A DNA stretch of 64,000 nt from Paraburkholderia caballeronis (GTDB taxonomy: Bacteria > Pseudomonadota > Gammaproteobacteria > Burkholderiales > Burkholderiaceae). The stretch covers positions 1,426,001 to 1,490,000 of the forward strand of contig NZ_FNSR01000001.1 of assembly GCF_900104845.1 (NCBI RefSeq), given 5' to 3'. The position numbers were made by a program, and so were the translations under genes. Numbering within the stretch: the stretch's first letter is position 1; every line of letters begins with the position of its first letter. Below are positions 38,995-43,686 of this stretch, one piece after another. The notes beneath the pieces were generated by a model, which worked only from the letters and a program-made list of their open reading frames with translations, was not told where the DNA came from and ran no database searches.

Positions 38995-40194
38995 TCAGTT
39001 GGCGGAGGACGGGGCGACCTGTTCCTGGTATTCGCGCGGGGTGCAGCCGAGTTCGCGCTTGAACACCGCGTACATGTATTGCAGCGAAGTGAAGCCGCAG
39101 CGGATCGCGACTTCGGCGCTCGACGCGTCGCGGCTCGCGAGCAGCGCCTTCGCGGCGTCGAGCTTGTGGCGCAGGATCTCCTGGTGCACGGTGCATTGCA
39201 GTTCGCGGCGGAAATGCTCTTCGAGCGACGAACGCGACACGCCGACGTAATCCGCGACCTGTTCGGTCTTGATCCCCTGGCACGCGTACTGGCGGATGAA
39301 GTGCCGCGCGCGCATCACGTGCGGGCTCGACAGCGGTTCGTGCCGCGTGGATTCGAGCACGTTGATGCCGACTGGCGGCACGAGGATGCGCTGGCCGGGA
39401 AACCGCGCGCCGCGCAGCATCTGGTGCAGCAGGTGCGCGGCGGTGCGGCCCATTTCCTCGGTGCCCTGGATCACGGACGACAGCGGAATGCGCGTCAGCG
39501 TGCGCGTGAGCGGATCGTTGTCGATGCCGATGATCGCGACCTGCTCGGGCACCGGAATGCCGGCGGTCAGGCACGCCTGCAACACGTGCCGCGCGCGGCC
39601 GTCGGTGACGGCGATCACGCCGACGGGTTTCGGCAGCGCGCGCAGCCACTCGGTCAACTGCTCGATCGACTGGTTCCAGACCGGCGCGCTGGTCGGCAGG
39701 CCGCGATGGATCTGCGCGTCGAGTCCTTCCGCGCGCAACAGCTTCTCGAACGCGAGTTCGCGCTGCTGCGCCCAGCGGTTCTCCTGCGCGGCGGGCAGGC
39801 TGTACATCGCGAAGTTCTGCAGGCCGGCGCCGATCAGATGGGTCCAGGCGAGCGACACGAGTTTCTCGTTGTCGGTCGCGATGTACGGCACGTCGGACGG
39901 ATAGTGCGACGGGTCCTCGAACGACGAGCCGACCGCGACGACGGGCAGCGGCGAGCCGCGCAGCGCGTCGGCGACGGCGGGGTCGTCGAAGTCGGCGATG
40001 ATGCCGTCGCCGGCGAAGCGTTCGATGCCCGCGAGCCGGCAGCGGAAGTCCTCTTCGAGAAAGAGATCCCACGCGACGCGCGTCGAGCGCAGGTAGTGGC
40101 CGATCCCGGTGATGATCTCGCGGTCGTACACCTTGTTCGCGTTGAACAGCAGCGCGATGCGGTGCGGCGTCTGGGCGGAAGGGGCGCGGTTCAT
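38995..40194 (-). CDS. xylR: xylose operon transcriptional activator XylR
   Basis: A 399-residue regulator in the E. coli XylR layout. An N-terminal periplasmic-binding-protein-like xylose sensor domain covers about residues 10-275 (HRIALLFNANKVYDREIITGI at the start, VAIIGIDNDP later). An AraC-type double helix-turn-helix follows at about residues 295-395, with QVADYVGVSRSSLEEHF and CGFTSLQYMYAVFKRELG. The Met at 40194 has GGAGAGGA upstream; the frame is open far beyond it by chance. Divergent from xylABFGH, whose 551-base upstream region holds four hairpin repeats. Confidence 0.93.
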   Translation of the reverse strand: MNRAPSAQTPHRIALLFNANKVYDREIITGIGHYLRSTRVAWDLFLEEDFRCRLAGIERFAGDGIIADFDDPAVADALRGSPLPVVAVGSSFEDPSHYPSDVPYIATDNEKLVSLAWTHLIGAGLQNFAMYSLPAAQENRWAQQRELAFEKLLRAEGLDAQIHRGLPTSAPVWNQSIEQLTEWLRALPKPVGVIAVTDGRARHVLQACLTAGIPVPEQVAIIGIDNDPLTRTLTRIPLSSVIQGTEEMGRTAAHLLHQMLRGARFPGQRILVPPVGINVLESTRHEPLSSPHVMRARHFIRQYACQGIKTEQVADYVGVSRSSLEEHFRRELQCTVHQEILRHKLDAAKALLASRDASSAEVAIRCGFTSLQYMYAVFKRELGCTPREYQEQVAPSSAN

Positions 40195-40532
40195 GTCCTC
40201 TCCTGCGCGGGTTTGCCCTGGGTGTTCGCGGGGCATTGGGTGTCCGCGCAATCGTCTCCGTATGTAGGCTGATGCGTCGCGCGCGGCGCTTGTCTGCCGC
40301 GCGGCGCGGCCGGCACGGCGGCCGGCGTTTTTTAAGCGTCCGGTTATTCTAGGCCGACAATCGTCGCCGCGTGCAGCGCATCGCAGTGCGCTGGCAAGAA
40401 ACATTAGCGTCGCCGCGCAATTTCGCAATTGCCCCCTGTTACGGGGCGCGGGCAGTATGGCGTCGAACGACAGGCGGGTATCGCTCGCGTGCAGCGCACG
40501 ATGCGCCGCGACAAGAAAATCAATCAACCTGC
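40195..40532. promoter_or_regulatory. xylR-xylA divergent control region (upstream part)
   Basis: About 340 bases before the hairpin array. No gene is seen. It must hold the promoters and the XylR site. An AT-richer stretch with a short inverted repeat lies near 40410-40432 and a small 5-bp hairpin at 40431-40447, but I could not place -35/-10 elements or a XylR site with confidence. Confidence 0.4.
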
Positions 40533-40729
40533 ATGGGATCAGGGTAAGCACCAAGGCGTCAACCCGGATCGACACGGCAATCATTTACGTGGGACCGGAG
40601 TAAGCGCTGAAGCGCTAACTCTGATCGACAGCTTTACATGGGATCAGAGTAAGCGCTGAAGCGCTAACTCTGATCGACAGGTTTTACATGGGACCGGAGT
40701 AATCGCTAAAGCGATAACTCCGGTCGACA
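40533..40729 (+). repeat. Four tandem 34-nt hairpins upstream of xylA
   Basis: Four hairpins, each 34 bases, lie at 40537-40570, 40593-40626, 40642-40675 and 40692-40725, so the unit repeats every 49-56 bases. Each is preceded by (A/G)TGG and followed by GACA; the last three also have TTTAC before them. Copies 3 and 4 fold into 14-16 bp stems with one A-A mismatch at the same place and differ by paired, compensatory changes. Copy 2 is mixed and copy 1 is degenerate. In every copy the 5' flank reads ATG or GTG, GGA, two codons, TAA. The last hairpin ends six bases before the AGGAG of xylA. Function unknown. Confidence 0.85.
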
Positions 40730-40745
40730 TAGGAGACAACACAGC

Positions 40746-42068
40746 ATGTCGTACTTCGAACACATCCCGGCCATCCGCTACGAAGGCCCGCAGTCGGACA
40801 ACCCGCTCGCATTCCACTACTACGACCGCACGAAGAAGGTGCTCGGCAAGACGCTCGAAGAGCATCTGCGCATCGGGGTCTGCTACTGGCATACGTTCGT
40901 GTGGCCAGGCCTCGACATTTTCGGTCAGGGCACGTTCCATCGTCCGTGGCAGCAGCCCGGCGACGCGATGGAGCGCGCGAAGCAGAAGGCCGACGCGGCG
41001 TTCGAATTCTTCTCGAAGCTCGGCGCGCCGTACTACACGTTCCACGACACCGACGTCGCGCCGGAAGGCAAGGACCTGAAGGACTACACCGAGAACTTCG
41101 CGCGGATGGTCGATTACCTCGAAGCGCGTCAGCAGGCAACCGGCGTCAAGCTGCTGTGGGGCACCGCGAACCTGTTCTCGCATCCGCGCTACGCGGCGGG
41201 CGCGGCGACGAGTCCCGATCCGGAAGTGTTCGCGTATGCGGCGACCCAGGTGCGCCACGCGCTCGACGCGACGCAGCGGCTCGGCGGCGAGAACTACGTG
41301 CTGTGGGGCGGCCGCGAAGGCTACGACACGCTGCTGAACACGGACCTCGCGCGCGAGCGCGAGCAGTTCGCGCGGTTCCTGTCGATGGTGGTCGAGCACA
41401 AGCATCGCATCGGCTTCAAGGGCACGCTGCTGATCGAGCCGAAGCCGCAGGAGCCGACCAAGCACCAGTACGACTACGACGTCGCGACGGTGCACGGCTT
41501 CCTCACGCAATACGGGTTGCAGAATGAGATCCGCGTGAACATCGAGGCGAATCACGCGACGCTCGCGGGCCATTCGTTCCATCACGAGATCGCGACGGCG
41601 TTCGCGCTCGGCGTGTTCGGCAGCCTCGATGCGAACCGCGGCGATCAGCAGAACGGCTGGGACACGGACCAGTTTCCGAACAGCGTCGAGGAACTGACGC
41701 TCGCGTTCTACGAGATCCTGCGCCACGGCGGCTTCACGACCGGCGGGATGAACTTCGATTCGAAGGTGCGCCGCCAGAGCGTCGACCCGGAGGATCTGTT
41801 CTACGGCCATATCGGCGCGATGGACGTGCTCGCGATCGCGCTGGAACGCGCGGCGGCGCTGGTCGAGAACGACCGCCTCGAACAGTTCCGTCGCCAGCGT
41901 TATGCGGGCTGGGACACGGAGTTCGGCCGCAAGATTCTCGCGGGCGGCTACTCTCTTGAGACGCTTGCCGCCGACGCCGCCGCGCGCGGCGTGAATCCGC
42001 AGCATGCGAGCGGTCAGCAGGAACGGCTCGAAAACGTCGTGAACCAGGCGATCTACGCGCCGCGCTGA
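40746..42068 (+). CDS. xylA: xylose isomerase
   Basis: XylA converts D-xylose to D-xylulose. The 440-residue class II enzyme has the catalytic His in YTFHDTDV (near residue 101), metal-binding residues in [15 protein letters not shown] and [17 protein letters not shown], and DANRGD further on. It starts with [30 protein letters not shown] sequence as in E. coli (shown here only by its first residues). AGGAG lies ten bases before the ATG, directly after the last hairpin repeat. First gene of the xylABFGH run. Confidence 0.97.
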
Positions 42069-42134
42069 ACGTCGCGCGGCACGCGCCGGGCCATGAGCGG
42101 TCGAGCGGTCCGGCGCGAACGAAGTGGGTCCGTC

Positions 42135-42171
42135 GGCCGTCGATCTCGCGACAGGGCGAGATCGAACGGCC
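42135..42171 (+). other. Hairpin between xylA and xylB
   Basis: A stem of about 15 bp with a one-base bulge (42135-42149 with 42156-42171) around a six-base loop lies 37 bases before xylB. There is no T-run. It probably affects stability or relative expression within the xyl message. Confidence 0.5.
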
Positions 42172-42207
42172 ACGGCGCGCAGCAGCGCGAATAAAAAGGA
42201 TGGAGAC

Positions 42208-43686
42208 ATGTTCATCGGTATCGACCTCGGTACGTCCGGCGTCAAGGCGGTGCTGCTCGACCGCGACGGCGCGGTGCGCGGCAGCGCAGTGGCGCCGCTC
42301 GTCGCGAGCCGGCCGCAGCCGCGCTGGTCCGAGCAGAAACCCGCCGACTGGTGGGACGCGACGCGCAGCGCGCTCGGCGCGTTGCTGACGGGCGCGCGCG
42401 CCGAAGGCATCGACGCGGCGCAGATCGAGGCGCTCGGCCTGACCGGCCAGATGCACGGCGCGACGCTGCTCGACGCGCAAGGCAACGTGCTGCGCGACGC
42501 GATCCTGTGGAACGACGGCCGCTCGGACGCCGAATGCGTCGAACTCGAACGCGCGGCGCCGGAGCTGCATGCGATCGCGGGCAATCTCGCGATGCCGGGT
42601 TTCACCGCGCCGAAGCTGCTGTGGGTGCGCCGTCACGAGCCGGATGTGTTCGCGCGGATCGCCCACGTGCTGCTGCCGAAGGACTACCTGCGCTACAGGC
42701 TGACCGGCGGTTTCGCGACCGATCCGTCCGACGCGGCCGGCACGCTGTGGCTCGACGTTGCGAAGCGCGACTACAGCGACACGCTGCTCGCCGCGTGCGG
42801 GCTGTCGCGCGAGCAGATGCCGGCGGTCTACGAAGGCAACCGCGTGACCGGCACGCTGCTGCCGCAGGTCGCGCGCGAATTCGGGCTGCGCGAGATTCCG
42901 GTGGTCGCCGGCGGCGGCGACAACGCGGCGGGCGCGGTCGGCGTGGGCATCGTGCGGCCGGGGCAGGCGATGCTGTCGCTCGGCACGTCCGGCGTCTATT
43001 TCGCGGTGTCGGACGGCTTTCTCGCGAATCCGGCGTCGGCGGTGCACAGCTTCTGCCACGCGCTGCCCGACACATGGCATCTGATGTCGGTGATGCTGAA
43101 CGCGGCCGGCTGCATCGACTACACCGCGCAACTGACCGGTTATCCGGACGTCGCCGCCTTGCTCGCGGACGCCGAGGCGAACGCGCGCGACGCGCGTCCG
43201 TGGTTCCTGCCGTATCTAAGCGGCGAGCGCACGCCGCACAACAACGTGAACGCGAAGGGCGTGTTCTACGGCCTCGCGCCGCAGACGACCCGCGCGGACC
43301 TCGCGAACGCGACGCTCGAAGGCGTTGGTTTCGCGCTGCTCGACGGGATGGACGCATTACACGCGGCGGGCCTCGTGCCCGACGACATCACGGTGATCGG
43401 CGGGGGCTCGCGCAGCGCGTGGTGGACGCAGATGCTCGCGGACTTGAGCGGCCGCTCGCTGACGCTGCGCGCGGGCGGTGAAGTCGGCCCGGCGCTCGGC
43501 GCGGCGCGGCTCGCGCATCTGGCGCTCGCGCCCGATGCGCCGCTCGACGCGGTGTGCCCGCAGCCGCCCATCGTCGCGGTGCGCGAGCCGGACGCCGCGC
43601 GCCATGCGTGGTATCGCGACGCGCGCCGTCCGACCTTCCAGGCGCTCTATCGCGCGCTCGAACCAGTATTCGCAACCGGCGCATGA
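42208..43686 (+). CDS. xylB: xylulokinase
   Basis: XylB phosphorylates D-xylulose to xylulose-5-phosphate for the pentose phosphate pathway. The 492-residue FGGY-family kinase starts MFIGIDLGTSGVKAVLLD (ATP-binding strand pair) and has TGQMHG, the catalytic Asp in GGGDNAAGAVG, SGVYF, and the late GGGSRSAWWTQ adenosine-binding motif. The ATG at 42208 has AAGGATGGAGA upstream; the frame is open 28 codons before it. A 195-base gap precedes xylF. Confidence 0.97.
   Translation: MFIGIDLGTSGVKAVLLDRDGAVRGSAVAPLVASRPQPRWSEQKPADWWDATRSALGALLTGARAEGIDAAQIEALGLTGQMHGATLLDAQGNVLRDAILWNDGRSDAECVELERAAPELHAIAGNLAMPGFTAPKLLWVRRHEPDVFARIAHVLLPKDYLRYRLTGGFATDPSDAAGTLWLDVAKRDYSDTLLAACGLSREQMPAVYEGNRVTGTLLPQVAREFGLREIPVVAGGGDNAAGAVGVGIVRPGQAMLSLGTSGVYFAVSDGFLANPASAVHSFCHALPDTWHLMSVMLNAAGCIDYTAQLTGYPDVAALLADAEANARDARPWFLPYLSGERTPHNNVNAKGVFYGLAPQTTRADLANATLEGVGFALLDGMDALHAAGLVPDDITVIGGGSRSAWWTQMLADLSGRSLTLRAGGEVGPALGAARLAHLALAPDAPLDAVCPQPPIVAVREPDAARHAWYRDARRPTFQALYRALEPVFATGA

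Follow-up and report, generated by a model that had tools for sequence, protein, structure and literature searches.

Tandem units of a mobile hairpin family before the ribosome sites of xylA and other genes in Paraburkholderia caballeronis

Results and discussion

The xylA locus and its four hairpin units

The analyzed window was a 64,000-nt stretch of the P. caballeronis genome (contig NZ_FNSR01000001.1, positions 1,426,001 to 1,490,000). The xylA gene (40746..42068, + strand) began with an ATG at 40746 and encoded a xylose isomerase of 440 residues with a Pfam xylose isomerase-like TIM barrel. It was followed by a putative sugar kinase gene (42208..43686, +; start assigned by hand within the frame 42124-43686), which is presumably xylB-like. 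The divergent gene (38995..40194, −; start codon assigned by hand within the longer frame 38995-40584) lies at what we take to be the xylR position. Two promoter-proximal blocks were conserved in the xylA upstream regions of the best 70 of 93 matches. The first, CGCAATTTCGCAATTGC (40416..40432, +), a putative operator, contained a 14-nt core that was found with at most one substitution in 69 of the 70 regions. The second, GGGCAGTATGGC (40450..40461, +), a putative −10 region, was likewise present, with no more than one letter changed, in 69 of 70.

The stretch between these blocks and the xylA ribosome site contained four units of 49 nt within 40528-40731, which confirmed the four 34-nt inverted repeats that the original prediction had placed at 40537, 40593, 40642, and 40692. 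The distal unit 1 (40528..40576, +; hairpin 40537-40570) was decayed and scored 44.1 bits with the covariance model. Unit 2 (40584..40632, +; hairpin 40593-40626) contained one mismatch and one wobble and scored 67.2 bits, and unit 3 (40633..40681, +; hairpin 40642-40675) scored 74.5 bits. The hairpin of the gene-proximal unit 4 (40683..40731, +; hairpin 40692-40725; 70 bits) was followed by GGAG 6 nt on. The unit starts were spaced by 56, 49, and 50 nt in a repeat search, and the stretch 40525-40760 folded with a z value of −9.0 against 200 shuffles. The paired changes noted between the third and fourth copies were real: ATCAG/CTGAT was replaced by ACCGG/CCGGT, and a G-C pair nearer the loop by T-A. 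The last copy was also correctly placed just before the xylA ribosome site, since the array end directly abutted AGGAG (40731..40735, +).

A GGAG-type site close to the 5' side of the xylA ATG was present in relatives without units as well. The distance from the 14-nt core of the promoter block to the ATG had a median of 94 nt (80-165) in 60 xylA regions without units and was 131-314 nt in nine regions with units. This longer distance indicates that the xylA units probably extend the leader downstream of the promoter block.

Unit architecture and covariation

The unit of about 49 nt was composed of a linker, TTTGCATGG, a 34-nt hairpin, and a tail, GACAGC. The hairpin consisted of nine base pairs, an internal A.A mismatch, five base pairs, and a tetraloop, usually URAA. 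Among 38 units selected from the window's genome, eight of the 14 stem pairs varied on both sides, and 95.3% of the pair cells were paired, compared with 89.6% after shuffling. Four of five covariation measures were reached by none of 500 shuffles, which here as in the tests below ignore the relatedness of the units, and the fifth was reached by 15. Covariation was also found between species at atpC, in an alignment of 13 units from 12 genomes that omits the atpC unit of the window's genome (L256, longer by one nucleotide) and the nested L263. There, 93.4% of the cells were paired against 86.4% in shuffles (0 of 500), and seven of the 14 stem pairs had changed on both sides (1 of 500); further pair types were no better than shuffled (304 of 500). 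These results showed that the units covary as hairpins.

The diverged copies retained pairing as well. In 32 own 49-nt units below 65 bits, the stem letters matched the consensus in 76% of cases and pairing was 89%, against 78% in shuffles (0 of 1000). Agreement in the same units was 91% for GCATGG of the linker, where it is affected by the unit-finding model's preference for intact linkers, 93% for GACA, and 90% for the loop. At 68% and 78%, respectively, linker positions 1-3 and the A.A mismatch were conserved no better than the stems.

In most units, columns 6-20 of the 49 read as ATG GGA NCN GAG TAA/TAG, a four-codon frame (ATGGGNNCNGAGTAA), before which no ribosome site was seen. The first unit was preceded in many arrays by the letters AGCAACCAT. 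At L085 (G000 C2:20811-20986), the standard units were preceded by a junction of another kind, AACCAGCAACCAATTTATGGG, which is related to theirs and has a period of about 44 nt.

The unit family in the genome and its relatives

The recurrence of the unit elsewhere in the genome, in 45 arrays in all, had been missed in the first reading. A 261-nt stretch at xylA gave 49 BLAST matches in its own genome, itself included. A covariance model built from the 38 own units gave 146 matches, which corresponded to 134 units in 45 arrays after 12 opposite-strand echoes of the palindrome were left out. The arrays comprised 17 single units, eight doubles, three triples, four of four units, four of five, seven of six, and two of seven. 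When the model search was restricted to the 45 arrays, 138 units remained of 219 matches after removal of the opposite-strand echoes and of two partial matches.

The units within an array were not equally preserved. In the 20 arrays of at least three units, the outermost unit was the weakest in 17 (4.1 expected) and the gene-proximal unit in one, with mean scores of 49.8 bits for outermost, 72.3 for middle, and 72.7 for proximal units. This usual decay of the outermost unit indicates either that new units arise near the gene or that selection keeps the proximal ones.

The covariance-model search of relatives, proposed earlier as a check, matched 35 of 59 genomes, all 35 of the window's genus, and none of the 24 genomes from other families. 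In a sample of the family, at least 125 of 299 genomes and at least eight of 25 genera matched under strict filters; genome G312, of the window's own genus, gave no match under these filters. Unit counts per genome in both samples are lower bounds, since the number of candidates scored in each genome was capped. In the samples searched, matches came only from the window genome's own family. The unit was present in 14 records of Burkholderia, Paraburkholderia, and Caballeronia in a plasmid collection. A phage-borne element was not supported, with no match at E 1e-5 among 50,697 phage records and no exact pattern match in viral contigs.

Position before ribosome sites

In 41 of the 45 own arrays, a purine-rich ribosome site came directly next, with a start codon 7-16 nt past the unit on the same strand, and the last paired base was usually 4-7 nt from GGAG. 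In two further arrays (L076 and L097), the ribosome site and start came after a decayed or partial unit; at L083 the ribosome site was tens of nucleotides further on, and at L092 none was in reach. Scatter without a link to gene starts, which had been set beforehand as the refuting result, was thus not found in this genome. Three start codons among the 41 opened short frames that preceded the expected gene or took its place (14 codons at L068, 35 at L080, and four at L088).

The same position was common in other records. Among the matches listed from an exact-pattern scan (120 loci), 104 of 133 arrays stood before a same-strand ribosome site and start by a lenient test; of those remaining, 16 lay inside another repeat, two at a contig end, and 11 elsewhere. 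The 80 loci with names listed were all from Burkholderia, Paraburkholderia, Caballeronia, or Trinickia, and all seven named arrays inside another repeat were from Trinickia.

A same-strand gene lay upstream of 27 of the 45 own arrays, as judged by a purpose-made codon score, and 13 arrays were located 28-94 nt past the stop codon of such a gene, including the array of atpC behind atpD. A Pfam scan covered the downstream proteins of 44 of the 45 arrays (all except L092), of which 39 matched. Most of these were enzymes or parts of energy metabolism, together with three transport proteins and one helix-turn-helix domain. The products included xylose isomerase, ATP synthase epsilon, a GlmU/GlgC-type nucleotidyl transferase, galactarate/altronate dehydratase, short-chain dehydrogenases, GMC oxidoreductase, transhydrogenase and alanine dehydrogenase, CoA transferase, enoyl-CoA hydratases, E1 dehydrogenase, cytochrome c, and a YbgT-like protein. 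The original interpretation was supported in part. For its suggestion of an RNA regulator of sugar genes, position, strand, and covariation fit the RNA level, but the downstream genes were varied and mostly metabolic. A restriction to sugar genes was not supported, as genes of many kinds followed the arrays. In other records, the classes of 70 genes behind arrays did not differ clearly from those of 80 controls, the latter called with a simple purpose-made gene finder. Among the 25 commonest families listed, the regulators GerE (3) and LysR (2) were present in the controls and absent from the array list, as raw counts.

Gain, loss, and movement of units

Units were present before xylA in nine of the 70 genomes, four of them weak (G018, G230, G368, and G365), and before the divergent gene in seven of 70, three of them weak (G025, G006, and G378). 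The several weak or decayed copies in relatives indicate that there is no strong constraint at each gene. G017 had one unit at xylA, and G317, with nearly the same flank, had none. At atpC, units were found in 14 of 30 genomes, a set that represents 30 of 81 matches to a query whose reading frame was off by one base. On a tree built from the flanking genes, eight changes were needed, at least six of which were forced by well supported branches, and the presence of units showed hardly any clustering (70 of 500 shuffles were as low).

In Trinickia, the 49-nt unit interrupted a different dispersed repeat at one point. Nine filled copies were found, along with two uninterrupted ones (L119 and L139) that differed from them by about one base at the insertion point. 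The host repeat was GC-rich and often ended at ATGAAC on the other strand (L119, L135, L141, L172, L185, and L339-L354). The unit is mobile, as is evident from the unit-free orthologous sites at xylA and atpC and from its location inside another repeat in Trinickia. A strict target word, CAG|GAG, was suggested by atpC and was not upheld at xylA, where the distance to GGAG differs.

In G092, 17 identical units, which were picked as best-scoring and hence alike, had 28-nt flanks that were on average only 84 and 82% identical. A whole unit lay within the loop of another at L252, L314, and L263; such nesting was seen at xylA in G007 and at the divergent gene in G019. Tandem units shared junction letters in the window's genome and in G078. 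The G078 junction repeated letters that are native at xylA in other genomes, which suggests local duplication.

Comparison with known systems

REP/BIME palindromes are moved by RAYT (Y1) transposases. The unit resembles them as a short, dispersed, multicopy, hairpin-forming, and mobile palindrome, and differs in that its arrays run head-to-tail along the strand of the gene and stand immediately 5' of ribosome sites. At E 1e-5, the Y1_Tnp family (PF01797) matched neither the window's genome nor the unit-rich genomes G092, G071, G009, G018, and G140. It was found in eight of 15 further genomes, among which the unit-rich G092 and G009 were without it and the unit-poor G034 and G142 had one each. 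At 13 Y1 loci, a set that leaves out six loci from the 15-genome search, the best unit score beside a Y1 gene was 5.9 bits, which is chance level. Of the proposed REP-like mobile palindrome, mobility was upheld by the unit-free sites and the insertion in another repeat; the REP/RAYT identity conflicts with the orientation and position of the arrays and with the lack of PF01797. Movement by Y1/RAYT was not supported, as Y1_Tnp gave no match at this threshold in the window's genome and some unit-rich genomes.

No match at the gathering score was found for the 4227 Rfam families in 13 of the 45 array loci, which were those scanned; the xylA stretch gave nine matches up to E 10, all below the cut-off. 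No name for the unit was found in the open-licence literature, and the accessible text of Sass 2015 (PMC4603805) held no statement on the unit repeat. According to the accessible passages of PMC4679880, the TAACTGA direct repeats of marine Beggiatoaceae are heptamers that mostly stand in place of the ribosome site, and a translational role is suggested there as unproven. Like the unit, they are tandem, on the gene's strand, and just before the start codons of many genes; unlike them, the unit is a covarying hairpin of 49 nt beside the ribosome site. These repeats are the nearest functional parallel among the systems seen. In the accessible part of PMC2864571, the pan motif RNA is tied to pantothenate genes and thought to bind a protein. 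It shares with the unit simple stems, a mostly tandem arrangement, and a position upstream of genes, but is bound to pantothenate genes, and the passage on it makes no mention of mobility. Burkholderiales-1, which a table of the same source lists as a candidate RNA motif of Burkholderiales with no Rfam number, may be a counterpart of the unit (PMC2864571).

A published list of Paraburkholderia CRISPRs contained the core of the unit (PMC5968390, Table 4; 21 of its 32 rows compared). Row 23 matched the unit exactly; in a 25-nt comparison with its core, rows 2, 3, and 20 showed 2-3 mismatches, and row 6 read the same as row 2. Among the 21 rows compared, 17 others differed at 11 or more positions. 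Although these five rows (2, 3, 6, 20, and 23) are near to or part of the unit, the unit itself is no CRISPR repeat, and their match to the hairpin unit indicates that their CRISPR label is probably false, with regular spacing as the likely cause.

Proposed role of the units and alternative explanations

The array is best described as a mobile hairpin module in mRNA leaders, probably read as RNA by a putative trans-acting factor (probability about 0.5). The position, the strand, the paired changes, and the largely fixed single-stranded parts favor a docking array at the RNA level. Since the fold of an inverted repeat is much the same whichever strand it is read from, the one-strand bias suggests that the linker and loop are read, or else that insertion is strand-specific. 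The transcript would carry the units as tandem hairpins, about 4-7 nt 5' of a single cistron's ribosome site, and any action of theirs would be post-transcriptional. They would most likely be repeated docking sites for a putative trans-acting RNA-binding factor, which may change translation start or mRNA stability, with the copy number of the units setting the dose. Through movement of the units, many metabolic genes could acquire a shared leader. We infer the regulatory step in this reading of the leader.

The main rival is a purely selfish hairpin, whose mobility needs the hairpin and its ends, which chooses its targets strand-specifically, whose other insertions are purged, and from which the host gains nothing. 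This alternative has a considerable chance of being correct, although one below even. It is favored by the unit within another dispersed repeat in Trinickia, the identical units in differing flanks of G092, the weak or decayed copies at xylA and the divergent gene of relatives, and the repeated gain or loss at the single site of atpC. However, the distance from the unit end to GGAG varies by several nucleotides and the compared insertion points share little beyond AG/AGC, so a simple target word fails to explain the link to ribosome sites. The rarity of arrays in which the gene-proximal unit is the weakest (one of 20) also argues against it, and the search for a moving enzyme, directed at Y1_Tnp, yielded none for the unit. 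A DNA-level array, in which each palindrome would be occupied by a dimeric protein that acts as a repressor or bends the DNA, would account for palindromic, evenly spaced, and multicopy units. The original prediction had offered such a tandem protein-binding array as one option, but it appears improbable: the half-site letters change in pairs, unlike those of an operator read by its bases, and the xylA array is downstream of the promoter block while other arrays follow closely behind a same-strand gene (the 13 of 45 at 28-94 nt past its stop).

A structure switch, either a thermometer or a riboswitch, in which opening of the hairpin would let CTCC in the last unit's 3' arm pair with the ribosome site, is more improbable still. 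CTCC could indeed pair with GGAG, but the arm was CTCT or CTCG in several arrays in which GGAG stayed, and the scanned array loci had no Rfam match at the gathering score. The predicted unpaired fraction of the ribosome site in 41 arrays was 0.41 with the array, 0.47 with the array cut out (P 0.053), and 0.44 with the array shuffled; predicted folding thus showed no clear hiding or freeing of the ribosome site by the array. A degenerate or orphan CRISPR array is scarcely credible. The repeats are regular, and the published CRISPR rows match the unit core, but the "spacer" part, linker included, is conserved within the 49-nt unit and unique spacers are lacking. Moreover, at most of the 45 sites in one genome an array is followed by a ribosome site, and the five matching table rows are listed without cas genes (PMC5968390).

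A broader version of the docking-array reading is, as a whole, less likely than not. In it, a 49-nt hairpin would move to ribosome sites and stack in adjustable numbers, one dedicated putative factor would control dozens of metabolic cistrons, and species of the Burkholderia group would change the control of xylose, ATP synthase, and further genes through gain and loss of copies. Among the common short mobile palindromes, a family placed just before ribosome sites in most hosts, on one strand, in tandem, and with covarying stems would offer an unusually direct example of a mobile element at work through mRNA leaders. Orphan CRISPR calls in Burkholderia-type bacteria need re-checking. Orthologous genes with none to several units represent natural experiments. 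In the atpD-atpC gap (L256-L285), a further inverted repeat was seen by eye soon past the atpD stop, and its letters varied between species.
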